DNA from: Acidobacteriaceae bacterium
GTDB taxonomy: Bacteria; Acidobacteriota; Terriglobia; Terriglobales; Acidobacteriaceae
Length of the DNA: 64,000 bases
Direction of reading: 5' to 3'
Assembly (NCBI GenBank): GCA_030037705.1
Contig: JASHQE010000107.1
Coordinates: 1 to 64,000, forward strand
The stretch's first letter is position 1, and every line of letters starts with the position of its first letter. A program made the translations under genes and the position numbers. Below, one piece after another: positions 8,050 through 52,087 of this stretch. The notes beneath the pieces are model-generated. The model ran no database searches and was not told the DNA's origin. It saw only the letters and a program-made list of their open reading frames with translations.

Positions 8050-8152
8050 GGGCAGTTTCGGAAGCATCCCCTGTTTGTTGTAGCTTGCTTCCCGGCCGTT
8101 TCACCGATGAATCGCGATATCATGCGTTTGTGGGTTTGGGTGAGAGGCTGAT

Positions 8153-34539: not shown

Positions 34540-35426
34540 CTTTCCGCCCTTCCACTGCGCGCGCCGGAATCCTTGCGCTGTTCTTACTCGCTTTCACCTC
34601 GATGGCAGCAGCGCAGGCGGTCTCTGACGAGCCGGATTCCACACTGTACCGGCTTGCTCAAAGCGCCGATCCCGCGAGCGCCTCGTTAAATCCATCGCCT
34701 TACGGAATGCTGGAGTCGCCGGGGGCCTCCAGAGCTCCGATCTTCGAGTCGCCTGCGCCGCAGGCAAACCCTGGCGGCTTGCAGATCCAGGGCCTGCCGG
34801 GCGCGAACGTGCCATGGTCGATCGTGATCGTGCTCACGGCCTTGACGCTGATTCCGTCGGTCCTGCTGTGCGTCACGCCGTTTGCGCGCCTGTTAATCGT
34901 CTTTCATTTCCTGCGTCAGGCGCTCGGCCTGCAGACGACGCCGTCGAACCAGACACTCATCGGGCTTTCGCTGATCCTGACCTTTTTCCTGATGCAGCCG
35001 GTCGGCGCTCAGATCCTCGATAACGCAATCATTCCCGTGCAGCAGGGTCATATCACTGCAATGGACGCGCTCAAGATCGGCCAGGTTCCCTTGCGCAAGT
35101 TCATGGTTCACTATGTACGCGAGAAAGACGTAGCGCTGTTCATCGACCTCGCCAAGGAGCCCCGCCCGGCTTCTCCGGACGATCTCTCCATGCGGGTTCT
35201 GTTGCCCGCCTATATCCTGTCGGAACTCAAGGCCGGTTTCCAGATTGGCACGGTTCTCTTTCTTCCCTTCTTGATTGTCGATATGGTCGTCGCCTCGATC
35301 ACAACATCGATCGGCATGCTTCAATTGCCGCCGGTGGTAATCTCAACCCCGCTCAAATTACTGCTCTTTCTTATGGTGGATGGCTGGCATCTTTTGATCG
35401 GTTCTCTTATGAGGAGTTTCAGTTAA
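34536..35426 (+). CDS. fliP: Flagellar export gate protein FliP
   Basis: The 296-residue protein has a signal peptide (to about residue 27) and a long non-conserved periplasmic stretch. The export-gate core follows from about residue 90 (LTLIPSVLLCVTPFARLLIV, then LQTTPSNQTLIGLSLILTFF and the C-terminal QLPPVVISTPLKLLLFLMVDGW). The core is strongly conserved. It overlaps the fliO stop by 4 bp. Confidence 0.95.
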   Translation: MTFRPSTARAGILALFLLAFTSMAAAQAVSDEPDSTLYRLAQSADPASASLNPSPYGMLESPGASRAPIFESPAPQANPGGLQIQGLPGANVPWSIVIVLTALTLIPSVLLCVTPFARLLIVFHFLRQALGLQTTPSNQTLIGLSLILTFFLMQPVGAQILDNAIIPVQQGHITAMDALKIGQVPLRKFMVHYVREKDVALFIDLAKEPRPASPDDLSMRVLLPAYILSELKAGFQIGTVLFLPFLIVDMVVASITTSIGMLQLPPVVISTPLKLLLFLMVDGWHLLIGSLMRSFS

Positions 35427-35430
35427 AGCT

Positions 35431-35700
35431 ATGGATGTCGATCAGGTTGTCTTACTCGGGCGCATGATGCTGCAGGAAGTCATCATCCTTGCCGGTCCGA
35501 TTCTCGGCGTGGCGATCGTCGTCAGCCTGGTAGTCAATATCGCTCAGGTCCTGACTTCGCTTCAGGACATGACGATCTCGTCTGTTACACGCCTACTTGC
35601 CACTGGCGGCGCACTTTTCTTCACGATGCCCTGGATGTGGCGGCAGCTTTCACACTTTACGCTCAACATGTTTTCTGATTTTCATACTTACCTGCAATGA
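35431..35700 (+). CDS. fliQ: Flagellar export gate protein FliQ
   Basis: The 89-residue protein has two membrane helices and typical FliQ motifs (AGPILGVAIVVSLVVNIAQ; ISSVTRLLATGGALFF). It assembles with FliP and FliR in the export gate. The stop overlaps fliR by 4 bp. Confidence 0.95.
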   Translation: MDVDQVVLLGRMMLQEVIILAGPILGVAIVVSLVVNIAQVLTSLQDMTISSVTRLLATGGALFFTMPWMWRQLSHFTLNMFSDFHTYLQ

Positions 35701-36467
35701 TCAAGATTCCTCTGATTCCGATCATCACCGCGTTGCTGACCGTAGGCGTGCGCCTTTCGGGCCTGATGCTCTTCGCGCCTTTCTTCGGCAGCGTGGTGAT
35801 TCCTGCGCGGATCAAAGCGATCTTTGTCTTTGCGCTCACTGTGCTGCTATTTCCGTCCGTGGGACAACAGATCGTCACACCGTCACTGGCGGGATGGCCG
35901 ATGCTGGTCTTCACCGAATTTCTGATCGGTATGGGCATGGGCATCGCCACCAACCTGGTCTTCGAAGCGGTTCAGCTCACCGGCCAGATTCTCGGCGTGC
36001 AAATGGGTTATTCGCTGGTCAACATTCTCGACCCGCAGTCGCAAGTGGACACCACGGTTGTCTCGGTCTTCTACCAAAGCATTGTCATGCTGCTCTTCCT
36101 CCGGATGGATGTGCATTACTGGCTGCTGAAGGCCGTGGGCAACAGCTTTCTCTATCTGCCGCCCGGCACGGCTCACCTGAGCGGCTTGTTCACCGCGGAG
36201 GTGCTCAGGACGGTCGGCGAGTTGTTTGGGCTCGGCGTGCAGATCGCGGCACCTGTGCTGTCGGCCACTCTGGCCGCAGATGTGGTTCTTGGATTGCTCG
36301 GCAAGGCATCTCCACAGATGCCGCTCATGCTGCTCGGCCCTGCCGTCAAGAGTCTGCTCGGCATTCTCATTTTGATTGCGACGCTGAAATATTGGCCCGA
36401 TCTGTTCCGGCGATTGTTTTTAGATTCCATTGCGAAAGGCGACCAGTTGCTCCGTTTGGCGGACTGA
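35697..36467 (+). CDS. fliR: Flagellar export gate protein FliR
   Basis: The 256-residue protein has about six membrane segments and the conserved central loop EAVQLTGQILGVQMGYSLVN (about 85-105). Its length is normal for the family. It is translationally coupled to fliQ and precedes flhB by 6 bp. Confidence 0.94.
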   Translation: MIKIPLIPIITALLTVGVRLSGLMLFAPFFGSVVIPARIKAIFVFALTVLLFPSVGQQIVTPSLAGWPMLVFTEFLIGMGMGIATNLVFEAVQLTGQILGVQMGYSLVNILDPQSQVDTTVVSVFYQSIVMLLFLRMDVHYWLLKAVGNSFLYLPPGTAHLSGLFTAEVLRTVGELFGLGVQIAAPVLSATLAADVVLGLLGKASPQMPLMLLGPAVKSLLGILILIATLKYWPDLFRRLFLDSIAKGDQLLRLAD

Positions 36468-36473
36468 CATTGC

Positions 36474-37580
36474 ATGGCTGACGCGAATAAGACAGAAAAA
36501 GCAACACCGCGACAAAGACAGCGTGCTCGCGATCATGGGCAGGTCACGCGGTCGCGAGAACTGAACGGCGCTTTGGCCATGGCCGCCGTTGCCGGCGTGA
36601 TCTGGTTTATGGGACGCAATGCGGTGCCGCGCTGGACCACATTCTTTCGCAATGTACTGGATTCCGCAAGCAGTGATTCGATTACTGCCAACGGCCCGCT
36701 TCTGTTCTGGACCAGCATCGAGGCCATGAGTTGGGTCTTCCCTATTTTGGCCGCAGGTCTCGTGGTTGCTCTATGCACCGGACTCGCCCAGGGCGGCTTC
36801 GTCTTCGCTCCGGATGCACTCTCTCCAAAATTCGAACGTCTTAACCCAGCCGGGAAGCTTCGCCAGATGGTCTCGCTGGCTGCACTCAGCACGATTCTCA
36901 AATCTCTGATTCCCTTCAGTGCTATTGCGTGGATCGGATATGTCTGCATCCGCAGCCACTGGGATGAGATCCTCGGCAGTTCCTATACGGACGCGCGGCG
37001 TTTCGCCAGCCTGGTAAGTACGATGCTGCTTGAAATCTGCTGGCGATGCGGCCTGGTTCTGCTCGCTTGGGCGGGCGTAGATTATCTGCTGCAGTGGCGG
37101 AAAAACGAAAGCGATCTGAAGATGAGCCGGCAGGACATCAAGGATGAGGTCAAACAAGCCGAAGGCAATCCGGCTAGCAAAGCCAGAATCCGGCGGATGC
37201 AGAGGCAAGCGCGGCGCAAGCAGATGCTCAAGGCAACGGAAACAGCGACCGTGGTTGTCACAAACCCTACACACTATGCAGTTGCTCTGCGCTATGAACC
37301 CAAAATGGCGGCGCCCGTAGTGGTGGCAAAGGGCCTCGATCTGCTCGCGGCAAAGATCAAGGAGATTGCCTGGTTGCATGACATTCCGATTATGGAAAAT
37401 CGACCGCTGGCACAAGCACTCTACAAGAGCGTTCAGGTAGGCGACGCGATTCCGGCAGCGCTCTATCACGCGGTCGCGGAGATTCTGGTGGTTGTTTACA
37501 AGGCACAGGCGGAAGTGAAAGCGCGCGAAGCGCAAAGACGTGCTGCATCGATGCGGCGCGCAGAGGAATGGCCCCGATGA
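36474..37580 (+). CDS. flhB: Flagellar export switch protein FlhB
   Basis: The 368-residue protein has four membrane helices (about 35-50, 85-108, 142-162 and 185-205) and a cytosolic domain with the autocleavage site NPTH at 264-267, required for the switch from hook to filament export. The start motif DANKTEKATPRQRQRARDHG is characteristic. The stop overlaps flhA by 4 bp. Confidence 0.95.
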   Translation: MADANKTEKATPRQRQRARDHGQVTRSRELNGALAMAAVAGVIWFMGRNAVPRWTTFFRNVLDSASSDSITANGPLLFWTSIEAMSWVFPILAAGLVVALCTGLAQGGFVFAPDALSPKFERLNPAGKLRQMVSLAALSTILKSLIPFSAIAWIGYVCIRSHWDEILGSSYTDARRFASLVSTMLLEICWRCGLVLLAWAGVDYLLQWRKNESDLKMSRQDIKDEVKQAEGNPASKARIRRMQRQARRKQMLKATETATVVVTNPTHYAVALRYEPKMAAPVVVAKGLDLLAAKIKEIAWLHDIPIMENRPLAQALYKSVQVGDAIPAALYHAVAEILVVVYKAQAEVKAREAQRRAASMRRAEEWPR

Positions 37581-39655
37581 ACCAGAAACGCGGACTCTTT
37601 CAAACACTGCAGACATACTCGGACTGGGTAATCCCCACCGGCGCGGTGGCGCTGATCTTCGTCATGCTCGTACCTCTGCCCGGTTTCGCGCTTGATCTGC
37701 TGCTCACTCTGAATATCATGGCCGCGGTTCTGGTTCTGCTCACTGCAATTCAGGTTCTGCGTCCTGTGCAGTTCTCCGTATTTCCCAGCCTGATTCTTCT
37801 GCTGACGCTGATGCGTCTCGCCCTCGACCTTGCGAGCACGCGACGCATTCTGCTGCATGGAAACGAGGGTTCCTCCGCGGCCGGAAAAGTCATCGAAGCG
37901 TTCGGACAGTTTGTCGTCGGCGGCAATTACATCGTGGGCTTTGTAATTTTCCTGGCGCTGATCGCAATCCAGTACCTCGTTGTCAGTCACGGCGCAGTGC
38001 GCACAGCGGAAGTCACGGCGCGTTTCACGCTCGATGCGATGCCTGGCAAGCAGATGGCCATCGACTCCGACCTTAATACCGGATTGATTAATGCAGACCA
38101 GGCGCGTCAGCGGCGCGAGATGGTGGCGCGGGAAGCGGAGTTCTGCGGCGCGATGGATGGCGCCGCACGCTTTAGCCAGAGAGATTCCATGGCCACCATC
38201 CTCATCATGGCCATCAACATCATCGCCGGATTTTTCATCGGGGTATTCCAGCAGGGCATGCCGTTCCAGGATGCATTGAAGACGTACACAATCCTCACTG
38301 TCGGCAACGGACTTGTCGCAATCATTCCGTCCTTGCTGATTTCCGTGGCGGGAGGAATCGTCGTCACGCGCGCCGCCTCCGATCATTCGCTGGGCGCCGA
38401 CATTGGCAAACAGGTTTTCAAAACTTCGCGCCCGCTATGGATCGCGGGCGGAGTACTGCTTGCACTGGCCATTATTCCCGCCATGCCCAAGATTCCCTTT
38501 ATTGCTCTGGGCGGGCTTACGATGTTCACCGCCTGGAAGATGAAGTCCGGCGGCGCAGCCGAGCCGGCAGCTAAAGGCAAATCGGCTGCAGAGAAGAGCG
38601 CCACGGGCGCGCCAGCCGTCGATCCGATGGATGCGGTCTTGAAGCTCGATGAACTGATGCTCGAAGTCGGCGTCGGCCTCGTGCCGCTGGTCGATGCGAA
38701 GCAGGGAGGACAACTCCTTGCGCGGGTTAAATCACTGCGCAAGAATCTGGCGCAGCAGCTTGGATTCCTTGTTCCTTCCATCCATATTACGGACAATTTA
38801 TCTCTTAAAGAAAGAGAGTACGTGATCTATCTGCGCGGCGTAGAGATTGCGCGATGGGAGATGCGCCGCGACCGTCTGCTTGCGGTGAATTCCAACCCCA
38901 AGCCAGGCGATCTGCAGGGCCAGGAGACGCAAGAGCCCGCGTTCAATTCACCTGCCAAGTGGATTACGCCGGACCTTCAGGCGCAGGCCATCGCTGCCGG
39001 TTACGCGGTTGTGGACCACACTTCCGCTCTGGCGGCCCACCTCTCTGAGCTCATCAAGCAGAACGCACACGATCTGCTTACACGGCAGGAGACCAAGCGC
39101 CTGGTGGATCGCCTTGCTGATTCGCATCCGAAGCTGGTGGAAGAGCTGACTCCGAAGCTGATGAGCCTGGGAGAAGTGCAAAAGGTGCTCCAACAATTGT
39201 TGCGTGAGCAGGTATCGATTCGCGATCTGGGCACGATTCTGGAGACACTCGTGGAAACAGCGGGGGTCAATAAGAATCCCGTGGTCTTGGTGGAAGCTGT
39301 GCGGCATGCGCTTGGCCGCGCACTGATCCGGCCTCTGCTCGACGAACGCGGAAGGCTTAAGGTAGTTACGCTCGACAGCTCGCTCGAAGAAGAATGCGCT
39401 CGCTCCTCCTCCCAGGCGCCTCAGCTCGGCGCCGGCGGCACATTACAGCTTTCTATCGCGCGCAGAGTCCTTGATGGCCTGCGCGCCATGCTCGGGGATC
39501 AGATCGCCATGGCGCCTCCTGTGCTGTTGTGTGCTTCTCCGGGCCGATTCTACCTGCGCCGCTATTTGGAGCCATTCATTCCCCGGGTTGTAGTAATTTC
39601 GCCGTCGGAGATTCCTCCGATGACGCAAGTGATGTCGTTGGGGTCGGTGCGATGA
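37577..39655 (+). CDS. flhA: Flagellar export gate protein FlhA
   Basis: The 692-residue protein has an N-terminal membrane half with about eight helices and the FHIPEP region (VFPSLILLLTLMRLALDLAS, then HGAVRTAEVTARFTLDAMPG). The cytoplasmic half after about residue 325 binds export chaperones. I chose ATG 37577, which forms an ATGA overlap with flhB and has AGAGGA at good spacing; the ATG at 37568 is too close to that site. No flhF or flhG follows, unlike many clusters. Confidence 0.95.
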   Translation: MNQKRGLFQTLQTYSDWVIPTGAVALIFVMLVPLPGFALDLLLTLNIMAAVLVLLTAIQVLRPVQFSVFPSLILLLTLMRLALDLASTRRILLHGNEGSSAAGKVIEAFGQFVVGGNYIVGFVIFLALIAIQYLVVSHGAVRTAEVTARFTLDAMPGKQMAIDSDLNTGLINADQARQRREMVAREAEFCGAMDGAARFSQRDSMATILIMAINIIAGFFIGVFQQGMPFQDALKTYTILTVGNGLVAIIPSLLISVAGGIVVTRAASDHSLGADIGKQVFKTSRPLWIAGGVLLALAIIPAMPKIPFIALGGLTMFTAWKMKSGGAAEPAAKGKSAAEKSATGAPAVDPMDAVLKLDELMLEVGVGLVPLVDAKQGGQLLARVKSLRKNLAQQLGFLVPSIHITDNLSLKEREYVIYLRGVEIARWEMRRDRLLAVNSNPKPGDLQGQETQEPAFNSPAKWITPDLQAQAIAAGYAVVDHTSALAAHLSELIKQNAHDLLTRQETKRLVDRLADSHPKLVEELTPKLMSLGEVQKVLQQLLREQVSIRDLGTILETLVETAGVNKNPVVLVEAVRHALGRALIRPLLDERGRLKVVTLDSSLEEECARSSSQAPQLGAGGTLQLSIARRVLDGLRAMLGDQIAMAPPVLLCASPGRFYLRRYLEPFIPRVVVISPSEIPPMTQVMSLGSVR

Positions 39656-39699
39656 AAACAAAAATCTCTATTTTGATGCGTAAGGAGGTGGACCGATGA
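39652..39699 (+). CDS. 15-codon linker ORF between flhA and fliA
   Basis: ATG AAA ACA begins within the flhA stop (ATGA, 39652-39655) and the reading frame ends in an ATGA that contains the fliA start (39696-39699). The encoded peptide is MKTKISILMRKEVDR. Its codons 11-14 contain the fliA ribosome site AAGGAGGTGG. It has no visible function as a protein and may carry ribosomes from flhA to fliA. Confidence 0.45.
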   Translation: MKTKISILMRKEVDR

Positions 39700-40490
39700 C
39701 AGCTGCAGAACTGGCCTACACAAAGAGCGCAGCCCATGACGTAAGCAGTGACGAACTCGTGCTGCAGGAGTTGTCTCAGGTCTATTACATCGCCGCGCGC
39801 ATTCGTGATCGCCTGCCTCAGCACGTAGATCTGGAGGATCTGGTCAGCGCCGGCGTCGTTGGCCTGATCGAGGCCAGCCGCAGCTTCGATAGCACAAAGG
39901 AAGCACAATTCAAAACGTTCGCCAAATTTCGGATCCGGGGCGCAATCCTCGACAGCCTGCGCGAGATCGACTGGGGATCGCGCTTGATGCGCAGGAGAGG
40001 ACGCGAGATCGCCGATGCGACATCGCGGCTCGAAGCGAGGCTCGGCCGGCAGCCAGCAGAAGCAGAAATCGCAGCGGAGATGAATGTCGACGTTGATTAT
40101 CTCCGCAAGATCGTTGCCCAACTCGATACCTTGCATGTCACCGGCCAGCGCGTCGCTGCATCCGAGGGCGATTCCGAAACGATTGATGTCATCGAATCGG
40201 CTCCCGATCTGGATGGCTTGAACCCGTTTGATCTATGCCTTACAGCGGAGATGAGAAGCCATCTTGCCGAAGCGATCTCCAAACTCAGTGAACGGGAGCA
40301 GTTGATCCTGTCGCTCTACTATCGCGAAGAGCTCACGATGAAGGAAATAGCCAAAGTTGTGGGGGTGGCGCTTTCGCGCGTCTCACAAATTCGAGAAGCG
40401 GCGATCATCAAGCTCCGTAAATCTCTAACCCATGTTCAGGAGCGGCCTTCAGGAAAACAAGCCGCGGAAGAAAGCACGCAACGCGCCTAA
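39696..40490 (+). CDS. fliA: Flagellar sigma factor FliA (sigma-28)
   Basis: The 264-residue sigma factor directs late flagellar genes. It has region 2 (LEDLVSAGVVGLIEASRSFDS, FKTFAKFRIRGAILDSLREID), region 3 (about 105-150) and region 4 with a helix-turn-helix (ELTMKEIAKVVGVALSRVSQI). A near-perfect ribosome site (AAGGAGGTGG) stands 7 bp upstream. Sigma-28 sites of consistent form occur before five genes in this window, and its antagonist FlgM is encoded at 48773. Confidence 0.95.
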   Translation: MTAAELAYTKSAAHDVSSDELVLQELSQVYYIAARIRDRLPQHVDLEDLVSAGVVGLIEASRSFDSTKEAQFKTFAKFRIRGAILDSLREIDWGSRLMRRRGREIADATSRLEARLGRQPAEAEIAAEMNVDVDYLRKIVAQLDTLHVTGQRVAASEGDSETIDVIESAPDLDGLNPFDLCLTAEMRSHLAEAISKLSEREQLILSLYYREELTMKEIAKVVGVALSRVSQIREAAIIKLRKSLTHVQERPSGKQAAEESTQRA

Positions 40491-40511
40491 AGCGCAGACA
40501 GGATCAACCAG

Positions 40512-41444
40512 ATGCCATCCATATCGCGACAGAAACCACGCGACACGTCGGCTCAACGGGTCGTGACCCGCTGCAACTTCCGCTCGGCTGGCCGCCTTTC
40601 GAATGAAAATGCACGCTCCCTGACATCGATTCACGAGACCTTCGCCAACCATCTTGCCAATGCGCTGGACGTTTACCTGGGCACAGGTCTTGAGTTAAAG
40701 GTAGGAACTCTTGACCAGCTCCCCATCAAGGAGCATATCGCGAGCATTCCATCCCTCACGTACATTGTCCCTTTTACAGGTAGCACGATTCCGGGCACGA
40801 TGATTGTGGAATGTGACAACAATCTCGTCTTTCCCATCATCGACCTGCTGCTGGGTGGAACAGGCGCGGCGGGAGATGCCTCACGGGAGCTTTCTGAAAT
40901 CGAAGAGGAGATCATGCAGGACGTGATCCTGCTCATCGTACGACATGCAGAAAATGCCTGGCGCATGCCGAATATGTCACTGACCGCGGGCAAGCGCGTC
41001 AAGTCGTCTGTGCTGCATCAGTATTGCGCGCCCAATGAAAAACTGATGTGCGTCAGGTTTGAGATCGACATTGCAGGGACCGCGGGCTGGTTTCAGCTGG
41101 TCTTTCCGACTGCTTTTCTTAATCTTCTCATCCAGCAGATTAAACAGGATCAGCCGCAAAGGGCACGGAGCGTACGGTATTTTCCGAGGCCGTCGATTCG
41201 CGAACGCATCCTTGACTGCGACGTGGAAGTGGCAACCGAAATTCAAGGAGTACGGGTTGCAGTGAAGGACCTGCTCGCTCTGCAGCCCGGCAGCGTGCTG
41301 AAACTTCGAGCGCCCGTCCGGACTCCAGGCATATTGACCGCCGGCGGACAAGGAATCTTTGAAGCCACGCCGGTGCGAACCGGATCACAAAAAGCGGCGC
41401 AGCTGGGCCGCCGCATCTCTTCAGCCAATTGGGAAAGGTTATAA
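40512..41444 (+). CDS. fliM: Flagellar motor switch protein FliM lacking the CheY-docking peptide
   Basis: The 310-residue protein has the FliM middle domain (CNFRSAGRLSNENARSLTSI to DLLLGGTG, and EIEEEIMQDVILL) and the C-terminal SpoA domain (about 220-290). The usual N-terminal CheY-P docking peptide of LSQxEIDALL type is absent: the protein starts MPSISRQKPRDTSAQRV. No upstream start adds it. fliN2 follows by 5 bp. Confidence 0.9.
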   Translation: MPSISRQKPRDTSAQRVVTRCNFRSAGRLSNENARSLTSIHETFANHLANALDVYLGTGLELKVGTLDQLPIKEHIASIPSLTYIVPFTGSTIPGTMIVECDNNLVFPIIDLLLGGTGAAGDASRELSEIEEEIMQDVILLIVRHAENAWRMPNMSLTAGKRVKSSVLHQYCAPNEKLMCVRFEIDIAGTAGWFQLVFPTAFLNLLIQQIKQDQPQRARSVRYFPRPSIRERILDCDVEVATEIQGVRVAVKDLLALQPGSVLKLRAPVRTPGILTAGGQGIFEATPVRTGSQKAAQLGRRISSANWERL

Positions 41445-41449
41445 GAGCC

Positions 41450-42247
41450 ATGGACAATCAGAACAATAAGATCGCAGCACAGGCATTCGCAGCCGCTTTT
41501 GCGAGCACACTCTCCGAATCGCTGGAGCAGGCCATCGGCTCGCCGTGGCTGCTCGAAATGATGGATAGCCACAAGCCGCCCACCGCCAAAAGCCAACCGA
41601 TTCAGTTTCGTCTGAAGGTAGACGGCGGACTGCACGGCGAATGCTTTGTTGAGTTCTATGAACCCCAGGTCTCCGAGCTGCTGGCAAAACTGGATAGCAA
41701 AGAAGTTGAGCCGGCTGCAGGTAATGAAGCCAAATTGCTGACGCCGGTCATCTCAGCGGCAACGGCCAGTCTAAAGGCAACGCTGGCCACGCGCTATGGC
41801 GATCTTTCATTCATGCTGGATCCGGTCTCCGGCCTTGCGTTCGGCGGCATGTTTGTCGTTCCGCTGGCAGCGCCTACTGACCGGTCCGGAGCCGCGGTGC
41901 TCCTCTATTTCGATGGCCAGCTGATGGATGCGTTCTCGTCCGCTGCGGTCGGCGATGAGGGCAATGACTCTGATCAACGGCTCTTTCATCCATCCAACCT
42001 CAAGCTGGTTATGGATGTGGAGTTGAATGTATCGCTTCGATTCGGACAGCGGCAGCTACCGCTCCGCGAAGTTCTGGAGTTGAAGAGCGGCTCTGTCATC
42101 GAACTGGATCGCCTGGTCGACGAGCCGGTTGAACTGCTTCTGGATGGCAAGCTTGTCGCACGCGGTGAGGCAGTGATCGTCGATGGCAACTACGGTCTGC
42201 GGGTTACGGAAATTCCCCAGGCGATTGAAACACATTTTCTTCGCTAA
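41450..42247 (+). CDS. FliN/FliY-like switch protein, long form
   Basis: The 265-residue protein ends in a SpoA domain (MDVELNVSLRFGQRQLPLREV, then VELLLDGKLVARGEAVIVDG). The N-terminal 150 residues are a separate domain that I do not recognise with certainty; its place and length are like the extra domain of FliY. ATG 41450 was chosen because it follows GGAAAGG; a TTG at 41429 is possible. With the short FliN at 33659 the C-ring seems to have two FliN-type proteins. Confidence 0.8.
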   Translation: MDNQNNKIAAQAFAAAFASTLSESLEQAIGSPWLLEMMDSHKPPTAKSQPIQFRLKVDGGLHGECFVEFYEPQVSELLAKLDSKEVEPAAGNEAKLLTPVISAATASLKATLATRYGDLSFMLDPVSGLAFGGMFVVPLAAPTDRSGAAVLLYFDGQLMDAFSSAAVGDEGNDSDQRLFHPSNLKLVMDVELNVSLRFGQRQLPLREVLELKSGSVIELDRLVDEPVELLLDGKLVARGEAVIVDGNYGLRVTEIPQAIETHFLR

Positions 42248-42274
42248 CTTATCTCGGTTGGAGATTGCATTCGC

Positions 42275-43183
42275 ATGAAGCTCTCGTTGAAGTCGTTATT
42301 GCCTAGCCGTGACCTTGGATGGAATCGCGTGCGCGCAGTGTGCGCGCTTGCTAGTTGCCACAACAAGCTGTTAATCCGATATGTTCCCGGCAGCCGTGTC
42401 GGCATCTTCGTGGGCGCTTCCTGGTATTGCTCGGCCGATTGTTTCGCGCAGGCATCTCGCGTGAACCTTGCCTCGCTTTCAACCGAAACCGTTGTCGAGA
42501 TGCCGCGGAATCCGCGCCTCACTCTGGGATTGGCCTTGCTTGCCAAAGGTTATCTGGACGAGGAGCAGCTTCGGTTCGCTGTGAGCCGGAGCGAGCGTGA
42601 AGGACAAAACCTGGAGACCACTTTGGTTGAATGCGGACTGGCGACCGACAAGCAAGTGGCCGCAGCCCGTGCCGCGCAATGGGGATATCCGGTGCTTGGG
42701 CAGGATGCCGCCAGCCAAAGCGTAGAGGCTGATCTGCCGCCTGCGCTGTTGCGAGCGTTCTCAGCCGCTCCTTTGCACTATTCACCGAAGGCAAGAAGGC
42801 TTGTGCTGGGATTCGTATATCGGGTTGAGCACAGCCTTCTCCAGTCGATCGAGCAGATCACCGGATTCAGGGCAGAACCCTGCTTCATTACGCCCACGGA
42901 GTTCCACGAACAGATGGAGCGGCTAACGGCTGTTCCCGGCTATGAAGAAGCTGTCTTCGAGAATCCCGGCACCATAACGCAGATGGCCAGAACGCTCGGG
43001 GGCTTTGCCATCGAGGTTGCGGCAAGAGAAGCCGGCTTTTCCAAATGCGGTTCCTGGGTCTGGATCAGGCTGGCTGGAAAACAGGGAACGGTGGACGTGA
43101 TCTTTGCGATGAAGGGAGCTTTTGCAGCGCCTAAGGCGCGACTTTCCACAATGCTCCCGGAAATAACGGAACGCCTGGGCTAG
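42275..43183 (+). CDS. MshEN-like protein with a four-Cys N-terminal motif
   Basis: The 302-residue protein starts with a possible zinc site: Cys23, Cys28, Cys52 and Cys56 (CALASC and CSADC). Residues about 80-145 resemble the N-terminal domain of GspE/PilB/MshE ATPases (LTLGLALLAKGYLDEEQLRF, then LVECGLATDKQVAAARAAQW), a fold that binds c-di-GMP in some proteins. No ATPase domain follows. The C-terminal third is unassigned. It is transcribed with the flagellar switch genes and may be a c-di-GMP receptor for motility. Confidence 0.65.
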   Translation: MKLSLKSLLPSRDLGWNRVRAVCALASCHNKLLIRYVPGSRVGIFVGASWYCSADCFAQASRVNLASLSTETVVEMPRNPRLTLGLALLAKGYLDEEQLRFAVSRSEREGQNLETTLVECGLATDKQVAAARAAQWGYPVLGQDAASQSVEADLPPALLRAFSAAPLHYSPKARRLVLGFVYRVEHSLLQSIEQITGFRAEPCFITPTEFHEQMERLTAVPGYEEAVFENPGTITQMARTLGGFAIEVAAREAGFSKCGSWVWIRLAGKQGTVDVIFAMKGAFAAPKARLSTMLPEITERLG

Positions 43184-43208
43184 AACAATCGTCGGCACCT
43201 GCCGATAA
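43181..43208 (+). promoter_or_regulatory. Sigma-28 promoter of the HDOD gene
   Basis: TAGAAC (43181-43186), 14 bp, GCCGATAA (43201-43208). The -35 hexamer and spacing are identical to the fliC promoter. The start site should lie about 14 bp before the GTG. Confidence 0.6.
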
Positions 43209-43227
43209 GTTGCGCAGGTGACCGCAA

Positions 43228-43941
43228 GTGCTGAAAACGAGCGTACTCGAATTTCCCGCCGGCGATGTATTGCATGACCCGCTCTGCTTTACTTACGAAG
43301 TTGCCGATGGTCTTCCTGATGTTCCGGCCCTACCCGAAACATTGCTGGCCCTGGAGCTTCAGCTTCAGGAGAACTCCGTCGATCTTCGCGGCTTCACGGA
43401 AACCGTACTCAGCGATTTGGGGGCGACGATCCAGATTCTGCGCCTGGCCGGACAGGAATACGAAATTGCCGAAGATTACCCCTCTCGCATTGAAGACTGC
43501 ATCTCCGACCTCGGCCTGACTTCCTGTTTTCAAGCAGTGCTAAAAGGAACTCTCGTCAGCGTGGGCCAGCAGCGCGCAGATTTTGAACTTTGGACACATT
43601 CCCGGAAGATTGCGAACCATTTCAGGGTTCTTGCCGAGAAGATGCCTGGACCTGTCAGCCCCGATCAAGCTTACATTGCCGGCCTGCTACATGCGATCGG
43701 CGCTCTGCCGGACGCTCTTGGGTGGCAGTGGGACGATATGCCCGGCAACAATATCCTTTCAGCCTTGAGACTGGCCGAACGGTGGCGTCTTCCACGCTAT
43801 GTAAAAGACTTCTTCCGTGAGATTCTCATGCCGGGTTACAACCCGCATTGGTCAGAGCTTCTGGCAACGGCCCATCGTCTCGCAGGACCATCGTGGGCCC
43901 GGTGCCCAGTGCAAGGAGCCAGCTTACGCTCTTTCGCGTAA
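43228..43941 (+). CDS. HDOD-domain protein
   Basis: The 237-residue protein has the HDOD fold: PALPETLLALELQL (30-45), DLGATIQILRLAG, ISDLGLTSCFQAVLKG, then LWTHSRKIANHF and AGLLHAIG. The catalytic HD pair of true HD phosphohydrolases is not conserved, as is usual for HDOD. These domains act as scaffolds in signalling and motility. The GTG start at 43228 has no ATG nearby. A sigma-28 promoter lies just upstream, so it probably is a late flagellar or motility gene. Confidence 0.8.
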   Translation: MLKTSVLEFPAGDVLHDPLCFTYEVADGLPDVPALPETLLALELQLQENSVDLRGFTETVLSDLGATIQILRLAGQEYEIAEDYPSRIEDCISDLGLTSCFQAVLKGTLVSVGQQRADFELWTHSRKIANHFRVLAEKMPGPVSPDQAYIAGLLHAIGALPDALGWQWDDMPGNNILSALRLAERWRLPRYVKDFFREILMPGYNPHWSELLATAHRLAGPSWARCPVQGASLRSFA

Positions 43942-44147
43942 ACATCGGCACTATCCGGTATACGGAGAAGCTCTTATAGCCGCCACAGGTTGCTGCGCAA
44001 CAATCTCTGGATTGCGTTCCTATGAGGATAAAGACTCATCGTTAGAATCGCGGCGCTTGGCTAAGTTCGGCTCTCATCATTCCCTCATGCAAAGACAATT
44101 TTGGCGATCATTTAGGTGTTGTTTCAGGCAAACTTTGCCCAACGGAA

Positions 44148-44163
44148 TGGCACGCGCCTTGCA
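44148..44163 (+). promoter_or_regulatory. Sigma-54 promoter of the flgF operon
   Basis: TGGCACG (44148-44154), 4 bp, TTGCA (44159-44163), a perfect match to the consensus core. The start site is expected near 44174, 13 bp before the flgF ATG at 44187. Confidence 0.9.
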
Positions 44164-44186
44164 TGTCCATAGGGCGAAGAGGCCGC

Positions 44187-44924
44187 ATGGACAGTGGATA
44201 CTATTCCGCGTGCACAGCTCTTGTGTCTCGCACCCAAGAGCTGGATACGATCGCCAATAATCTGGCCAACGCCAGCACTGCGGGCTATCGTGCACAGAAG
44301 AATGTTTTCAGTTCAGTTCTTGCTGACGCCGGCAATGCTTCTGCCTCGCCCCTCAACGCAGCCATCAATAACTACGGAGTTCTGAGCGGCACTACCCTCG
44401 ACCTCAGCCAGGGTGCGCTTCAGAAAACGGGCAATGACCTGGATTTGGCCATCCAAGGCCCCGGATATTTCGTCGTGCAGACGGCGAACGGGCCAGTGTA
44501 CACGCGCAATGGCAGCTTTCAGGTCTCTGCCCGAGGGCAATTGGTCACCTCAACCGGAGACGCGGTCATGGGCGACAAAGGCGTTATTACGATGCTCCCG
44601 GGGCCCGTTTCGATCAGTGCCGATGGAACTATTTCGTCCGACGGTGCTGTCACAGGCAAGATCCGGGTCGTCGAATTTCCGCCGAACACGCAACTTACCA
44701 GCCTGGGCAGCACCTACTATTCCGCGCCGCCGAAAACCGCACAACCGGCAACCAGCTCCGATGTCCGCCAGGGCATGCTGGAGAGCTCGAATGTAAATCC
44801 CATCACTGGCATGGTTGAACTTGTTACGGCGCAGCGCTCGGCTGAGATGATGCAGCGCGCTCTTTCCATATTCAATTCAGAGATCGATAAAACTGCAACG
44901 CAGGATCTGCCGAAGGTCGGCTAA
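44187..44924 (+). CDS. flgF: Flagellar rod protein FlgF
   Basis: The 245-residue rod protein has an N-terminal signature (LDTIANNLANASTAGYRAQ) and a C-terminal coiled coil (ITGMVELVTAQRSAEMMQRA). The ATG at 44187 (MDSGYYS) was preferred over a GTG/ATG-like start at 44163, because the latter lies inside the sigma-54 promoter and AGAGG precedes the former. It begins the flgFGAHIJMNKL run. Confidence 0.93.
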   Translation: MDSGYYSACTALVSRTQELDTIANNLANASTAGYRAQKNVFSSVLADAGNASASPLNAAINNYGVLSGTTLDLSQGALQKTGNDLDLAIQGPGYFVVQTANGPVYTRNGSFQVSARGQLVTSTGDAVMGDKGVITMLPGPVSISADGTISSDGAVTGKIRVVEFPPNTQLTSLGSTYYSAPPKTAQPATSSDVRQGMLESSNVNPITGMVELVTAQRSAEMMQRALSIFNSEIDKTATQDLPKVG

Positions 44925-44936
44925 AGGAGATTACGG

Positions 44937-45728
44937 ATGTTCCACGCGCTTTACACCGCGGCCAGCGGCATGACGGCACAGCAGCTCAATCTCGACAACA
45001 TCGCGAACAACCTCGCGAACTCGAGTACCTCTGGATTTCAATCGCGCCGCGTGCAGTTCTCCGATCTTCTTTACCAGAGTGATATCATGCCGGGCGCGGC
45101 AGCTACGCAGCAGACCACGGTAGCCTCCGGCCTGCAAATCGGTCTCGGCACCCGGCCCGGCAACACGGAGATTGTGCAAACGCAGGGTGATCTCACCAGC
45201 ACCGGCAATCCTCTCGACCTGGCGATCGAGGGCAGCGGCTTCTTTCAAGTTCTGCTGCCGAATGGGCAGACAGGCTACACGCGCAGCGGATCCTTCCAGA
45301 CGGATGCACAAGGCAATCTGGTCACCGCGAATGGCGATGCTCTGCAGCCGGCCATCAACATCCCCACTGCCGCTACCAACATCACCATCGGCAGCGACGG
45401 CACAGTGAGCGTCACGCTGCCCGGACAGACCCAGGCGCAGCAGGTGGGTGTCATTCAACTCGCAATGTTCGCAAACCCTGGCGGCCTGAACAGCGTGGGT
45501 AACAACATTTACCTTCCCACCACCGCGTCCGGAAATCCGGTTGTGGGCGCGGCGGGCGGCGCCGATGGCTTGGGCACCATTCAACAGGGAATGCTCGAGC
45601 AGTCCAACGTAAATGTTGTGGATGAGTTCGTGAACATGATCCTGGCGCAGCGCTCGTACGAATCGAACTCGCGCGTCATCAAGGCCGCGGACGAAATGCT
45701 CCAGCAGTTGAACCAGTTAGCTCAATAG
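44937..45728 (+). CDS. flgG: Flagellar distal rod protein FlgG
   Basis: The 263-residue protein is a normal-length FlgG: TAASGMTAQQLNLDNIANNL at the N-terminus, conserved PGNTEIVQTQGDLTSTGNPL in the middle, and a C-terminal EFVNMILAQRSYESNSRVIK helix. AGGAG precedes the ATG by 7 bp. Confidence 0.95.
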   Translation: MFHALYTAASGMTAQQLNLDNIANNLANSSTSGFQSRRVQFSDLLYQSDIMPGAAATQQTTVASGLQIGLGTRPGNTEIVQTQGDLTSTGNPLDLAIEGSGFFQVLLPNGQTGYTRSGSFQTDAQGNLVTANGDALQPAINIPTAATNITIGSDGTVSVTLPGQTQAQQVGVIQLAMFANPGGLNSVGNNIYLPTTASGNPVVGAAGGADGLGTIQQGMLEQSNVNVVDEFVNMILAQRSYESNSRVIKAADEMLQQLNQLAQ

Positions 45729-45739
45729 GATAGTCCGCA

Positions 45740-46303
45740 ATGATGCAACGCAGCTTGATTTTTCTCCTGGTTTTCGGCGCCGTCGCGGCCTCATCTGCTG
45801 CAGCCAGTGCGGCGCAATACGAGGTTACGCAGGAACAGGTCGCCGCAGCTATCACTGACCATGGAGTGCAGATTTCGTCGGACCAAGTCACTCTGCTTAC
45901 TGCAGTGGTTGCGAACGTTGCGAATCCCAGGCTGCAAGTGCAATCTGTTGACCGCACGGGAACGCAACGCGCCATTGCCCGTCTCGAGTGTGCCGACTCG
46001 CGGCAATGCTTGCCTTTTATCGTGTCTCTCCGCTTAGACCAGACAGAAAATACGGTGATGGCCCTCTCGTCTTCGCAACGGCCATCGCCGGCCATCCCAC
46101 AGACCAGGCCCTCCCCCGTTATCTTGCGCGCCGGCTCGCCCGCCATCCTTCTGCTGAACGGAGCTCACGTCCACATCCGTCTCACGGTGATTTGCCTTGA
46201 CAACGGAACGCTGGGCCAGACGATCCGCGCCACCGACCGTGATCGCCGCCAGGTTTATACAGCCAGAGTCACAGAAGATGGAATTCTGGAGGGACGGCTG
46301 TGA
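45740..46303 (+). CDS. flgA: Flagellar P-ring assembly chaperone FlgA
   Basis: The 187-residue protein has a signal peptide (hydrophobic residues 5-23, Ala-rich cleavage region) and a C-terminal SAF domain (AGSPAILLLNGAHVHIRLT, then TDRDRRQVYTARVTEDGIL). It helps FlgI polymerise in the periplasm. The N-terminal half is poorly conserved. Its stop overlaps flgH by 4 bp (GTGA). Confidence 0.88.
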   Translation: MMQRSLIFLLVFGAVAASSAAASAAQYEVTQEQVAAAITDHGVQISSDQVTLLTAVVANVANPRLQVQSVDRTGTQRAIARLECADSRQCLPFIVSLRLDQTENTVMALSSSQRPSPAIPQTRPSPVILRAGSPAILLLNGAHVHIRLTVICLDNGTLGQTIRATDRDRRQVYTARVTEDGILEGRL

Positions 46304-47016
46304 TCCCAATCCACTCCAAGCGGCTTTTATCTTCGATCTTGTGCGCCGGACTTCTGTTTTGCTTTGCCACAACAACGGAAGCGAAGATTACGAAGAAGAA
46401 CAGTCCAGCGCAACTGCGGTCCGACTATCTTGCGCGCGTGCAAGAACAGGATGCTCCCACCCCTGTCCATACGCTTGGCAGCCTGTGGACTCCCGATAAC
46501 GAATTGGGAGATTTTTCCACGGATTACAAGGCAAGGAAGCTCAATGACACACTTGTCATTTTGGCCTCTGTACAGACAACGGCAGCCCAAAGCGGCGACG
46601 TAAACAGCTCGCGCGCCTTTCAAACCAGTTCTGCCATTACCGGTTTCGCCGGACAAACCAATACGAACGGCGTGAATCCGCTGTTCAATGCCAATTCTTC
46701 GACCACGTTGAAAGGCTCGGGGGCGACGGATTCGAGCACAACCTTTCAGACCAGCTTGACGGCGCGCGTGATTGCGGTGCTGCCGAGCGGAAATCTGGTT
46801 GTTGAGGCCCAGCGCAAAATCTTCATGAACAACCAGCACGAGGATATAACGATTCGCGGGGTTGTTCGCCCCAACGACATTGGACCTAGCAATACGGTAG
46901 CCTCGTCTGCTTTGGGAAATCTCGAAATTGAAATGAAAGGCAAGGGAATCATCTCCGACAGTACGCGGCCTATGAACCCTATTACAAAAGCGATCCTCTG
47001 GCTGGTTGGATTCTGA
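46300..47016 (+). CDS. flgH: Flagellar L-ring protein FlgH
   Basis: The 238-residue protein has an N-terminal hydrophobic segment and the L-ring core (TTFQTSLTARVIAVLPSGNL, then VEAQRKIFMN and TIRGVVRPNDI). FlgH is normally a lipoprotein. Here the candidate cysteines (Cys15, Cys21) lack the small residues of a lipobox before them (SIL-C, LLF-C), so lipidation is doubtful. GTG start at 46300, coupled to flgA. L-ring genes support an outer membrane. Confidence 0.9.
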   Translation: MIPIHSKRLLSSILCAGLLFCFATTTEAKITKKNSPAQLRSDYLARVQEQDAPTPVHTLGSLWTPDNELGDFSTDYKARKLNDTLVILASVQTTAAQSGDVNSSRAFQTSSAITGFAGQTNTNGVNPLFNANSSTTLKGSGATDSSTTFQTSLTARVIAVLPSGNLVVEAQRKIFMNNQHEDITIRGVVRPNDIGPSNTVASSALGNLEIEMKGKGIISDSTRPMNPITKAILWLVGF

Positions 47017-47021
47017 AACCG

Positions 47022-48290
47022 ATGAAGCGTGTATTCTCCAATTTGAAGGTTTGGCTGCGCTCGATTGCGTGGGCTCTGGTCCTGAGCGGCATTGCATCTG
47101 TACTCATCCCGGTTGCTGCCGCGGATAATTCCAATCGCCGGGTGCTGGTCAGAGACATTACCAGCGTAGAAGGCGTGCGCGACAACATGCTGGTGGGATA
47201 CGGCCTAGTCGTAGGCTTGAATCGCACCGGAGACAGCCAGCAGACCTACTTCACTGTCCAGACACTTGCGAATGCGATGCAAAGGATGGGTGTCCTGATC
47301 TCGCCGGGCATCGTTGAAGTTAAGAATGTGGCCGCCGTTTTCATCACGGCGTCTCTGCCGCCGTTCGCCCGCCCCGGAGAGAAGCTTGACGTTACCGTAT
47401 CTTCCGCCGGCGATGCGAAAAGCCTGGAAGGCGGAGTGCTGCTGATGAGCGCTTTGCATGGTCCGGACGGGCAGGTTTATGCCGAGGCGCAAGGCCCCCT
47501 GGCGGTGGGAGGCTATTCCGCCGGCAATGGAGCCAATGGGAAGCAGGTCAATTCACCCACAGTTGGCATCGTTTCGAACGGAGCCATCGTCGAACGCGAC
47601 ACCTCCATTGACCTGCACGATTTCAAGACGGTTTCGCTCCTGTTGCGCAATCCAGATTTCACGACTGCCCGGCAGATTGCCGATGTCATCAATCAGGATT
47701 TTCATAAAACCGTCGCTTCGGCCCTGGATAGCACCCGCGTGGATATCTCGGTGGCAGACGCAGGCGAGTCCTCGGTTCCCGTTCTGATCTCCCGTATACA
47801 GAATCTTGCTCTCAGCGTTCACACACCAGCGCGCATCGTGGTCAACGAGCGCACCGGCACAATCGTGCTCGGCGGAGACGTGAAGCTCACGCCTGTCTCC
47901 GTCATTCACGGCAATCTTTCCATTCAGGTGGTCACATCCTACGCTGTGGCGCCGCTTCCGGTTACTGCGGAAGTTCCGATGGGAGGGTCGCGCGATTCTC
48001 GCCGTGACGGTTCACGCGCCGGAATGGCAGAGCCTGGCAGGTCGAACGACGGTGCGCAAAACCAAGGTGGCGGAGGCGGCTTTGCCGGACAGGCCGCTGC
48101 GTTGGTTCCAGAAACGAACCTGACCGCAAACGACAGCCCTGCGCAAACCATGCGCCTCGATGAGGGTGCAAATGTGGAGGAACTGGTCAACGGCCTCCAC
48201 GCGATTGGCACCACAGCCCGGGACGTAGTCGCGATTCTCCAGGCGATTAAAGCCGAGGGCGGCCTGCAAGCTGATCTGGAGGTGCAGTAG
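47022..48290 (+). CDS. flgI: Flagellar P-ring protein FlgI
   Basis: The 422-residue protein has a signal peptide (to about residue 34) and the FlgI core (RDITSVEGVRDNMLVGYGLV, GLNRTGDSQQT). It contains an unusually Gly/Arg/Asp-rich insert near residues 320-350 (SRDSRRDGSRAGM). flgJ starts on the base after its stop codon. Confidence 0.94.
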   Translation: MKRVFSNLKVWLRSIAWALVLSGIASVLIPVAAADNSNRRVLVRDITSVEGVRDNMLVGYGLVVGLNRTGDSQQTYFTVQTLANAMQRMGVLISPGIVEVKNVAAVFITASLPPFARPGEKLDVTVSSAGDAKSLEGGVLLMSALHGPDGQVYAEAQGPLAVGGYSAGNGANGKQVNSPTVGIVSNGAIVERDTSIDLHDFKTVSLLLRNPDFTTARQIADVINQDFHKTVASALDSTRVDISVADAGESSVPVLISRIQNLALSVHTPARIVVNERTGTIVLGGDVKLTPVSVIHGNLSIQVVTSYAVAPLPVTAEVPMGGSRDSRRDGSRAGMAEPGRSNDGAQNQGGGGGFAGQAAALVPETNLTANDSPAQTMRLDEGANVEELVNGLHAIGTTARDVVAILQAIKAEGGLQADLEVQ

Positions 48291-48776
48291 ATGAGCACCG
48301 GTATGATCGGACCTAGCGCCATGAGCACGCAGATCAGCATCCAGCAGGCGCAGGAATCGCAGACACTGCAGCAGATGAACTCGGCAAAGACGGCAAACAA
48401 TTCGGCAAAGATCGATAAAAGCGCCAAGCAGTTCGAGGCGATGTTGCTCTCCACCTGGCTGCAACAAGCCGAACAGTCCTATGCAACGGTCCCCGGATCC
48501 GAAGATGACGACGAAGATGCGGCGGGACGGGATCAAATGCTGAGCATGGGCGTCCAGTCCCTGGCGGAGTCTCTGGCTGCCTCAGGTGGCATTGGAATTG
48601 CTAGAATGATTGCCAAAGCCCTGCATACTGCAGCAGACAAGGCGGCAAATAGCGCCGAAACAGGCTCCGAACCTGCCGCCACAGGCCAAATTCCGGCGAG
48701 AAATCTGAGTTTTCCATTAAACTCCGGCCCGGAAAGTGCCGATAGTAGCGCAGGTTTAGAGAAGGTGTCCAAATGA
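48291..48776 (+). CDS. flgJ: Rod-binding protein FlgJ, short form
   Basis: The 161-residue protein contains the rod-binding domain (KSAKQFEAMLLSTWLQQAEQ; ASGGIGIARMIAKAL) but not the C-terminal muramidase domain of gamma- and beta-proteobacterial FlgJ. A separate muramidase would have to be encoded elsewhere. The flgM promoter lies inside its last 60 bp, and its stop overlaps flgM by 4 bp. Confidence 0.85.
   Translation: MSTGMIGPSAMSTQISIQQAQESQTLQQMNSAKTANNSAKIDKSAKQFEAMLLSTWLQQAEQSYATVPGSEDDDEDAAGRDQMLSMGVQSLAESLAASGGIGIARMIAKALHTAADKAANSAETGSEPAATGQIPARNLSFPLNSGPESADSSAGLEKVSK
48718..48745 (+). promoter_or_regulatory. Sigma-28 promoter of flgM, inside flgJ
   Basis: TAAA (48718-48721), 16 bp, GCCGATAG (48738-48745). 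The start site would lie about 20 bp before the flgM ATG. A sigma-28 promoter in front of flgM is known in other bacteria and gives feedback. Confidence 0.65.
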
Positions 48777-49060
48777 GAATCGATTCTTTCAACTCTTCGG
48801 CAGCCAGCGAGATTTCAAGCGAACCGAGTTCGAAACAGGTCCAGACGTCCGCGGCTTCGCCGTCTGGCGTGGGTGACGAAGGGGACCGGACCACGCTTAC
48901 GTCGGGTTCCGGGTCGGTCAGTGCGTTGGTAAGCCAGGCGATGAGCTCGCCTGAGGTTCGCCAGGACAAAGTGCAGAGCCTGCAGCAGGCTGTCAGCAAT
49001 GGTAGTTATCAGATCGATCCAGACAAGATCGCTGGCGCGATGATCGACGAGCACGCTTGA
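48773..49060 (+). CDS. flgM: Anti-sigma-28 factor FlgM
   Basis: The 95-residue protein has the FlgM C-terminal half that binds sigma-28 (VRQDKVQSLQQAVSNGSYQI, DPDKIAGAMIDEH) and a disordered, Ser-rich N-terminus. It holds FliA inactive until exported through the completed hook. It overlaps flgJ by 4 bp and has its own sigma-28 promoter. Confidence 0.92.
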   Translation: MRIDSFNSSAASEISSEPSSKQVQTSAASPSGVGDEGDRTTLTSGSGSVSALVSQAMSSPEVRQDKVQSLQQAVSNGSYQIDPDKIAGAMIDEHA

Positions 49061-49113
49061 TGAAGGAAGGCTCCGTTGCCAGTTGGTGACGCCCGACAGG
49101 AATTTTGCTACGA

Positions 49114-49542
49114 ATGATTGCGGTCTCGGTAAAAACGCGAACTGTCCAAGCTGGGGAGCATCTCCAGCTTCTGCGTTCCCTTGGCCGCGAATTGGAACGC
49201 GCGATGGACGCCATTGCGCGCAATGACCTCGATGAGCTTGAAAAAAGCGTTGCCAACCAGCAGGAAATGAGCGCCCGGCTCAGCAGCCTGGCAGACGACC
49301 TGAATCTTCCGGCTGACACGCATATTCCCTTCTCTTCCGAGTCGATCGATCCCGATCTAATGCACGAGATCCGCTCCGCCACAGGCGAATTGCAAAAGCT
49401 GAATCTTCGCTACTCAATTTTGATCAAGCATTCGAGCCGCTCGATTGCATTGATGGCATCCTTGTTCAGTTCCTTCCGGGGAGAATTTCAGGAGGCTTCT
49501 GGCGCCAGGCTGAAACAGCAGACCTGGTCCTGCCAGATGTAA
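49114..49542 (+). CDS. flgN: Flagellar export chaperone FlgN
   Basis: The 142-residue, mostly helical protein lies between flgM and flgK, the standard place of the FlgK/FlgL chaperone. It has FlgN-like features (AIARNDLDELEKSVANQQEM, C-terminal helix with YSILIKHSSRSIALMASL). The ATG at 49114 was chosen; a TTG at 49105 is also possible. Sequence conservation is low. Confidence 0.8.
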   Translation: MIAVSVKTRTVQAGEHLQLLRSLGRELERAMDAIARNDLDELEKSVANQQEMSARLSSLADDLNLPADTHIPFSSESIDPDLMHEIRSATGELQKLNLRYSILIKHSSRSIALMASLFSSFRGEFQEASGARLKQQTWSCQM

Positions 49543-49547
49543 TCGCC

Positions 49548-50927
49548 ATGGGGGGCTTAACCACATCTCTTTTGATGGGCATGGAGGCGCTGGATGCAAG
49601 CCAGGCCGCGCTCGACGCTACAAGCAACAATATCGCCAACGCAAACACCGCAGGATATACCCGCGAAGAGGCGCAGTTCAGCGAAAACGCGGAGAATTTG
49701 ATCGGCGGCTCCGTAGTAGGCGGCGGCGTCACGCTGGACGGCATTCAAAGCGTCCGCGATGAACTACTCAATCTGCAGATCCAACAGCAGACTTCGCAGC
49801 AAAGCAGCGCAGACACGGAATCCTCGAGCCTTCAATCCGTTCAAACTCTGTTCTCAAGCACCGGCGACGACATTGCAAGCACGCTCAGCGCATTCTCGAG
49901 CAGCCTCGCCGCGCTCTCCGCCAATTCAACCAGCACATCCGCGCAACAAAGCGTATTGACGGCCGGCCAGAATCTGGCGCAATCATTCAATACTGTGGCC
50001 AACGGGCTCACCAGCGCGCAATCGGCTGCCGACCAGCAGGTAACGCAAACCGTTGCGCAGATCAATTCCCTCACCCAGCAGATTGCCCAACTGAACTCTC
50101 AGCTCACGTCGTCCGTCACCACGCAACAGAATGGCGGCACCATTGAAGATCAGCGCGATGAGCTCGTGCAACAGCTCTCGCAGCTCACCGGCATCTCGGT
50201 CTCGCAAAGCAGCAACGGCGAGGTCATCACCACCGCCAACGGATCTCCTCTGGTCATGGGCGGGCAAAGCTATAATCTGCAGACCACGACCGGATCCGAC
50301 GGCTTCCAGCAAGTGCTGGACTCGAATGGAAACAACATTACTTCGTCGATTCAGGGCGGCCAGTTGGGCGGCGCCATTCAGGTCCGCGACCAGATCATCC
50401 CCGGCTATCTGAATTCACTAAATACGCTTGCCAGTCAGTTTGCTTCCGCCTTTAATACAGCGCAGGAAGCAGGCACCGATTCCAACGGCGATGCAGGCCA
50501 GGCATTCTTCACCGTGCCTTCGAACGCGAACGATGCTGCCGCCGGCATCTCTGTGGCCCTGACGAGTGGCTCTCAGATTGCGGTCAGCTCTGACGGGGCT
50601 TCGGGCAGCAACGGCAATGTCGCCAATCTTTCCGCCGCACTTACGAATGCATTGCCATCCGGACAAACCGCAGCCAATGATTATGCAAATCTGGTTTATC
50701 AGGTAGGCAATGACGTTTCAAATGCCAATGCACAATCCACGGCATTAGGTCAGAATATTCTCCAACTCACGAATCAGCAGAGTTCGGTCTCCGGCGTGAG
50801 CATCGATGAAGAGACCACAAATCTTATTCGCTATCAGACGGCTTATGAAGCTGCGGCACGCATCGTAAGCACCGTCCAGGCTCTCAGCACCGTAACCCTT
50901 GATATGGGCTCTACCCAGAGTTATTGA
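49548..50927 (+). CDS. flgK: Hook-associated protein FlgK (HAP1)
   Basis: The 459-residue junction protein has an N-terminal signature (LDATSNNIANANTAGYTREE), the low-complexity Ser/Gln-rich middle and the C-terminal helix with VSIDEETTNLIRYQTAYEAAAR. It is 5 bp after flgN and overlaps the in-frame region before flgL. Confidence 0.95.
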   Translation: MGGLTTSLLMGMEALDASQAALDATSNNIANANTAGYTREEAQFSENAENLIGGSVVGGGVTLDGIQSVRDELLNLQIQQQTSQQSSADTESSSLQSVQTLFSSTGDDIASTLSAFSSSLAALSANSTSTSAQQSVLTAGQNLAQSFNTVANGLTSAQSAADQQVTQTVAQINSLTQQIAQLNSQLTSSVTTQQNGGTIEDQRDELVQQLSQLTGISVSQSSNGEVITTANGSPLVMGGQSYNLQTTTGSDGFQQVLDSNGNNITSSIQGGQLGGAIQVRDQIIPGYLNSLNTLASQFASAFNTAQEAGTDSNGDAGQAFFTVPSNANDAAAGISVALTSGSQIAVSSDGASGSNGNVANLSAALTNALPSGQTAANDYANLVYQVGNDVSNANAQSTALGQNILQLTNQQSSVSGVSIDEETTNLIRYQTAYEAAARIVSTVQALSTVTLDMGSTQSY

Positions 50928-50932
50928 CGAAT

Positions 50933-51835: not shown

Positions 51836-51924
51836 TTCTGATTTCCCTCCGCCGCAACACGATCGATTCCTGTGGGAGTCCATTGGCTCGTGTTCCACGA
51901 TTTCATGATCGAGCGCAAAAAAAT

Positions 51925-51944
51925 GGGCGCGTTGTTACGCGCCC
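51925..51944 (-). terminator. Intrinsic terminator of the fliD-fliS operon
   Basis: An 8-bp GC-rich stem (GGGCGCGT) with a 4-nt loop, followed on the minus strand by a run of seven T (A-tract at 51917-51923). It lies about 140 bp after the fliS stop. Confidence 0.85.
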
Positions 51945-52087
51945 AGAAAGTTTGCCCACTTGTCGATCACGATGTCTCAGACCGGATCAGGAATTGGTGT
52001 TGGAAGGTTTGATACGCTCAAGCACTTGTTCGCCGCGGCGAACGGCCCCTCGCTCACTCTCGAAACCTTCGACGTGAATTTCTGGTC

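Follow-up and report, generated by a model that had tools for sequence, protein, structure and literature searches.

Most known c-di-GMP control of the flagellar motor is exerted by proteins of the PilZ type (YcgR and MotI, for example), and a 2025 review of c-di-GMP effectors, in the part drawn on here, gives PilZ proteins and FliI as the flagellar ones (PMC12564702). A different c-di-GMP-binding domain, MshEN (also GSPII or T2SSE_N), belongs to the ATPases MshE, PilB and PilF, which are encoded among pilus or type II secretion genes. Its contact positions were defined by Wang et al. (PMC5013675), and a study of the PilF GSPII-B domain has since widened the first of them to Arg, Lys or Leu (PMC11731258). 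The pocket is counted here over twelve positions: R/K/L9, L10, G11, L25, L29, Q32, R38, L39, G40, L54, L58 and Q61.

Here we describe an Acidobacteriota protein family with an MshEN domain, starting from a gene in a 64,000-nucleotide stretch of Acidobacteriaceae DNA (‘the window’). The family shares with MshE, PilB and PilF the same two-subdomain fold (Z near 11), and its distant members have the twelve contact positions in common with these proteins; it differs in the missing ATPase, in a four-Cys module in front of the domain, in its location among flagellar genes and, in the window copy, in a degenerate pocket. The N-domains of XpsE and Xanthomonas citri PilB likewise combine the fold with a degenerate c-di-GMP motif, and that of PilB docks a protein (PMC5013675, PMC8389850), but both are parts of secretion or pilus ATPases, carry other substitutions and have no Cys module. 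As proposed below, the family would resemble YcgR, MotI and DgrA, treated as c-di-GMP effectors on the flagellum in the part of the review used here (PMC12564702), although these are built on the unrelated PilZ fold, without MshEN or Cys module. NfrB and other ATPase-less MshEN proteins (sub-cut-off NCBIfam match) also carry the domain on a non-ATPase protein, but NfrB is a non-flagellar polysaccharide glycosyltransferase without the Cys module. The MshEN domain is known, whereas its arrangement in this protein, the association with flagellar genes and the coexistence of intact and degenerate copies appear undescribed; the open-licence literature yielded no report of an MshEN protein in flagellar switch operons.

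The window gene (Table 1) begins 27 bases beyond the stop codon of fliN, in the order flhB, flhA, fliA, fliM, fliN, window gene, HDOD gene, flgF, flgG, flgA, flgH, flgI, where the names flgA, flgH and flgI are based on order and similarity. A preliminary description had read it as a four-Cys, MshEN-like protein without an ATPase that follows the switch genes, and in these respects it was right. The cysteines, spaced C-x4-C in the first pair and WYC-x3-C in the second, are invariant in 66/66 family members. The module matches no known zinc-finger family; the zinc site is predicted from the invariance of these four candidate ligands, and the module probably binds zinc. Pfam and NCBIfam searches of the 302-residue protein found no ATPase domain. 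In the predicted structure the MshEN part spans residues ~81-222, more than the 80-145 originally proposed, and a small domain (223-284) follows.

Table 1. Features of the window gene and its immediate neighbours.
Feature	Position	Strand	Remarks
ORF	42275..43183	+	ATG start, 302 aa; four-Cys module, MshEN domain and small C-terminal domain
Four-Cys module, residues 20-62	42332..42460	+	C23, C28, C52, C56; modelled as a hairpin followed by a helix
MshEN_N, residues 83-135	42521..42679	+	Two 24-residue motifs; degenerate pocket, 7/12 positions
Ser106 codon	42590..42592	+	Site of MshE pocket Gln32; Ser in 8/9 and Ala in 1/9 of the clade; Gln in 51/66 overall
Glu114 codon	42614..42616	+	Site of MshE pocket Gly40; Glu in 9/9 of the clade, Gly in the other 57/57
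Arg132 codon	42668..42670	+	Site of MshE pocket Leu58; Arg in 9/9 of the clade and in L042
MshEN_C subdomain, residues 136-222	42680..42940	+	Structure matches to MshE, PilF and PilB
Small C-terminal domain, residues 223-284	42941..43126	+	From predicted structure; Trp263 invariant; possible remnant of PilB N2
fliM, motor switch protein	40512..41444	+	Pfam PF02154, TIGR01397
fliN, motor switch protein, directly upstream	41429..42247	+	TIGR02480 above cut-off
HDOD protein gene, directly downstream	43228..43941	+	PF08668, E 5.2e-14

A Pfam search of the window protein returned no domain match. The profile match to MshEN on which the preliminary description had hung its reading does exist: the NCBIfam model NF053729 (MshE-related c-di-GMP motif) covers residues 84-135 with an E-value of 1.2e-7, though at 31.4 bits it stays under the curated cut-off of 38. 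Other family members exceed the curated thresholds: distant ones pass that of Pfam MshEN (PF05157), and five (L070, L108, L112, L115 and L119) pass that of NF053729. Searched against PDB sequences, the window protein finds Thermus PilF (E 2.4e-14), and the family profile finds PilF, PilB and MshE (E 4e-44 to 3e-14). Its predicted structure (mean pLDDT 84.8) superposes on the MshE and PilF GSPII-B domains with Z 10.8-10.9 over residues 79-220, and the best match is the N-domain of X. citri PilB in complex with PilZ (Z 11.0). As judged from sequence and model, the window protein has a complete MshEN-type fold and the homology is real. The same list of structure matches contains nothing for the Cys module or for residues 223-284, both of which it barely covers. 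For the latter, a collinear but weak profile match to the N2 domain of PilB was obtained with a clean PilB set (P 0.0019 with non-Terriglobales members, 0.012 with all), an earlier comparison with a PilB set that included misread ORFs having given no significant result; this C-terminal domain may be what is left of N2.

The 66 members were gathered from across the Acidobacteriota, and 65 of them are encoded in flagellar clusters, nearly always right after fliN. The flagellar marker closest upstream is fliN at 61 of 65 homologous loci, many of the genes overlapping by 4 or 13 bases, a recurrence that rules out chance linkage; at two further loci this place is taken by an HDOD gene that in turn comes after fliN, and in L128 the family ORF as called overlaps fliN. 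Outside the Terriglobales, ~0.1-1.5 kb lie between fliN and the family gene. When 396 Acidobacteriota genomes were searched with a profile, 55 yielded strong members (E below 1e-27; reading frames of ~220-560 aa), and G372 yielded a divergent one. FliM is present in 101 of the 396 genomes, and all 55 fall within those 101 (Fisher p ~1e-39, a value that ignores shared ancestry), bearing out the predicted co-occurrence with fliM. Within the window's own taxonomic family, the gene occurs in 35/37 FliM-positive and 0/7 FliM-negative genomes; across its order, 92/150 genomes gave matches, a few of which are PilB. A plasmid search beyond the Acidobacteriota returned four partial, low-identity matches, one of them in Acetoanaerobium, all with coverage under 80%; the one read with annotation proved to be a GspE in a pilus cluster, and the Acetoanaerobium match carries no annotation.

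FliM-positive Acidobacteriota without the family gene are common (the f25 group, for example), and three clusters of the window type have lost it (L131, L132 and L145), so that the gene is evidently inessential to the flagellum. Directly after fliN these three clusters have the HDOD gene (L132, L145) or flgF (L131). In several other FliM-positive Acidobacteriota without the gene (L134, L136-L143), a small protein is encoded between fliN and flgF; its N-terminus is hydrophobic, and it has a probable coiled coil and, towards the C-terminus, a conserved helix-turn-helix-like motif (ERRHRVLTLARRG). The sole member outside any flagellar cluster (L123, positions 7246-8070, in G372) has the four cysteines and 12/12 pocket positions and adjoins TatD-like and SecD/SecF-like genes; its genome has a flagellar cluster elsewhere.

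Whole-motif regular expressions, in a strict version and in the relaxed one of Wang et al., were abandoned as they missed most PilB controls too, and the pocket was instead scored position by position. On this count 12 correctly read Acidobacteriota PilB proteins, used as controls, score 11-12. Outside the window's order, 16/18 family members retain all twelve positions, and by this measure the family as a whole has the sequence of an MshEN-type receptor; most members look able to bind c-di-GMP. Terriglobales members mostly keep 10-11 of the 12, nearly always with Pro at the first position and with lengthened linkers, two features that make even the 11/12 copies uncertain binders. The preliminary description had proposed a new class of c-di-GMP receptor: the pocket favours this for the family and speaks against it for the very copy from which the idea came.

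That copy retains 7/12 positions, short of an MshEN-type receptor pocket, with R9 replaced by Thr83, Q32 by Ser106, R38 by Asn112, G40 by Glu114 and L58 by Arg132. It belongs to a nine-member clade, a single branch even when the pocket columns are left out of the tree (SH-aLRT 96), whose members keep 5-8 of the 12 positions; E114 and R132 are invariant within it, while positions 83, 103, 112 and 128 vary. The change from intact to degenerate pocket occurs twice on the tree, the second case being L042. A decaying pseudogene was ruled out by the open frame and by a dN/dS of 0.11 against L003 (pocket segment 0.13; fliM and fliN 0.12; dS near saturation), and since the gene is under purifying selection we regard the degenerate pocket as a maintained variant. 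In MshE the second guanine is contacted by G40 as well as L58, so a salt bridge between Glu and Arg might occupy its site. The window copy most likely no longer binds c-di-GMP, and the protein has probably arisen from a flagellar c-di-GMP receptor and become independent of c-di-GMP.

We propose that an Acidobacteriota-wide flagellar protein, consisting of a four-Cys (probably zinc) module, an MshEN domain and a small C-terminal domain, is made from the fliM-fliN gene unit and would serve as a cytoplasmic c-di-GMP receptor at or near the C-ring. Its gene position, together with the pocket, is why we read it as a receptor for the switch or a nearby part; gene position is also what suggests that the protein acts on the motor or export gate. 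Its contacts would be made through the Cys module and the C-terminal domain. The window copy would come from a derived clade in which a fixed E114-R132 pair, usually with Ser106, stands in place of pocket residues, and it may work in one fixed state or have its state set by a protein partner. A fixed state has a precedent in MshE, where a pocket-dead mutant retained full complementation (PMC5013675). We lean towards this account, a receptor family with a pocket-lost derivative in the window, as the somewhat probable one.

How far the window copy has left its ancestral function can be seen differently. It might still bind c-di-GMP, or a nucleotide akin to it, in a pocket of altered shape: its MshEN fold is intact by model and structure matches, R81 (the counterpart of MshE R7) and Q135 are retained in addition to the seven positions, binding occurs in some MshEN proteins despite imperfect motifs (PMC5013675), and PilF GSPII-B does without the arginines and still binds at 6 nM (PMC11731258). 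Yet the charged pair at G40 and L58, with Ser for Q32, replaces a backbone contact and a stacking residue at the second guanine site, and XpsE, with comparable losses that include changes at the same positions, is a non-binder (PMC5013675); we judge residual binding distinctly unlikely. A degenerate domain could alternatively serve as a docking module that receives its signal through a partner such as a PilZ, HDOD or switch protein, as the ND0-ND1 region of X. citri PilB docks a PilZ protein without a c-di-GMP motif (PMC8389850). That complex is the top structure match of the window protein, a PilZ protein is encoded next to motAB in the window, and 8/9 related degenerate loci are followed by an HDOD gene. 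The fold match is, however, common to all MshEN domains and says nothing about partners, and the PilZ gene lies 25 kb from the family gene, so docking as the whole explanation seems doubtful.

A third possibility would remove the receptor altogether: every member would serve the structure or assembly of the flagellar base, with the Cys module as the working part and the MshEN fold as a mere scaffold. It would suit the set position among structural genes, often overlapping fliN, and the retention of the cysteines in every member when the pocket is not so retained. A purely structural role, though, would not need a pocket, and 12/12 positions are kept over deep branches; moreover, the gene is missing from many flagellated Acidobacteriota and from the three window-type clusters. 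We rate this reading as unlikely, and return to that of a receptor family with a pocket-lost derivative in the window.

A second flagellar cluster in the same assembly (contig C168, L038:1-9638; 62% GC as against 57%) is of a different type from that at 35000-52000 of the window, and its family member, at L038:4359-5315 after fliN, has 11/12 pocket positions, with cheY and cheX next in order. Two further genomes, G077 and G138, each hold one degenerate and one intact copy, and in G077 both types lie on a single contig with a similar GC gap, which rules out contamination as the source of paired clusters. Such genomes offer a natural comparison for the role of the pocket. Acidobacteriota motility is little studied, and an MshEN protein that occurs across the phylum and is made together with fliM and fliN would, if confirmed, be a second solution besides PilZ. 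We put forward tentatively, as possible though not probable, the combined proposal that Acidobacteriota have a non-PilZ class of flagellar c-di-GMP receptor, ATPase-free, MshEN-based and linked to C-ring genes, and that species with two systems carry one competent and one locked receptor; c-di-GMP would then act on only one kind of flagellum.

The genome encodes c-di-GMP enzymes in number (17 GGDEF and 10 EAL matches). Within the flagellar region of the window, genes for a PAS-GGDEF-EAL protein (13361-15268) and the PilZ protein (17210-17566) flank the motAB-like genes. The HDOD gene seen downstream of the degenerate-pocket copies stands directly downstream of the family gene in only one intact locus. 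In most loci the loss of the pocket coincides with replacement of cheY-cheX by the HDOD gene, a coincidence that reflects few independent events.
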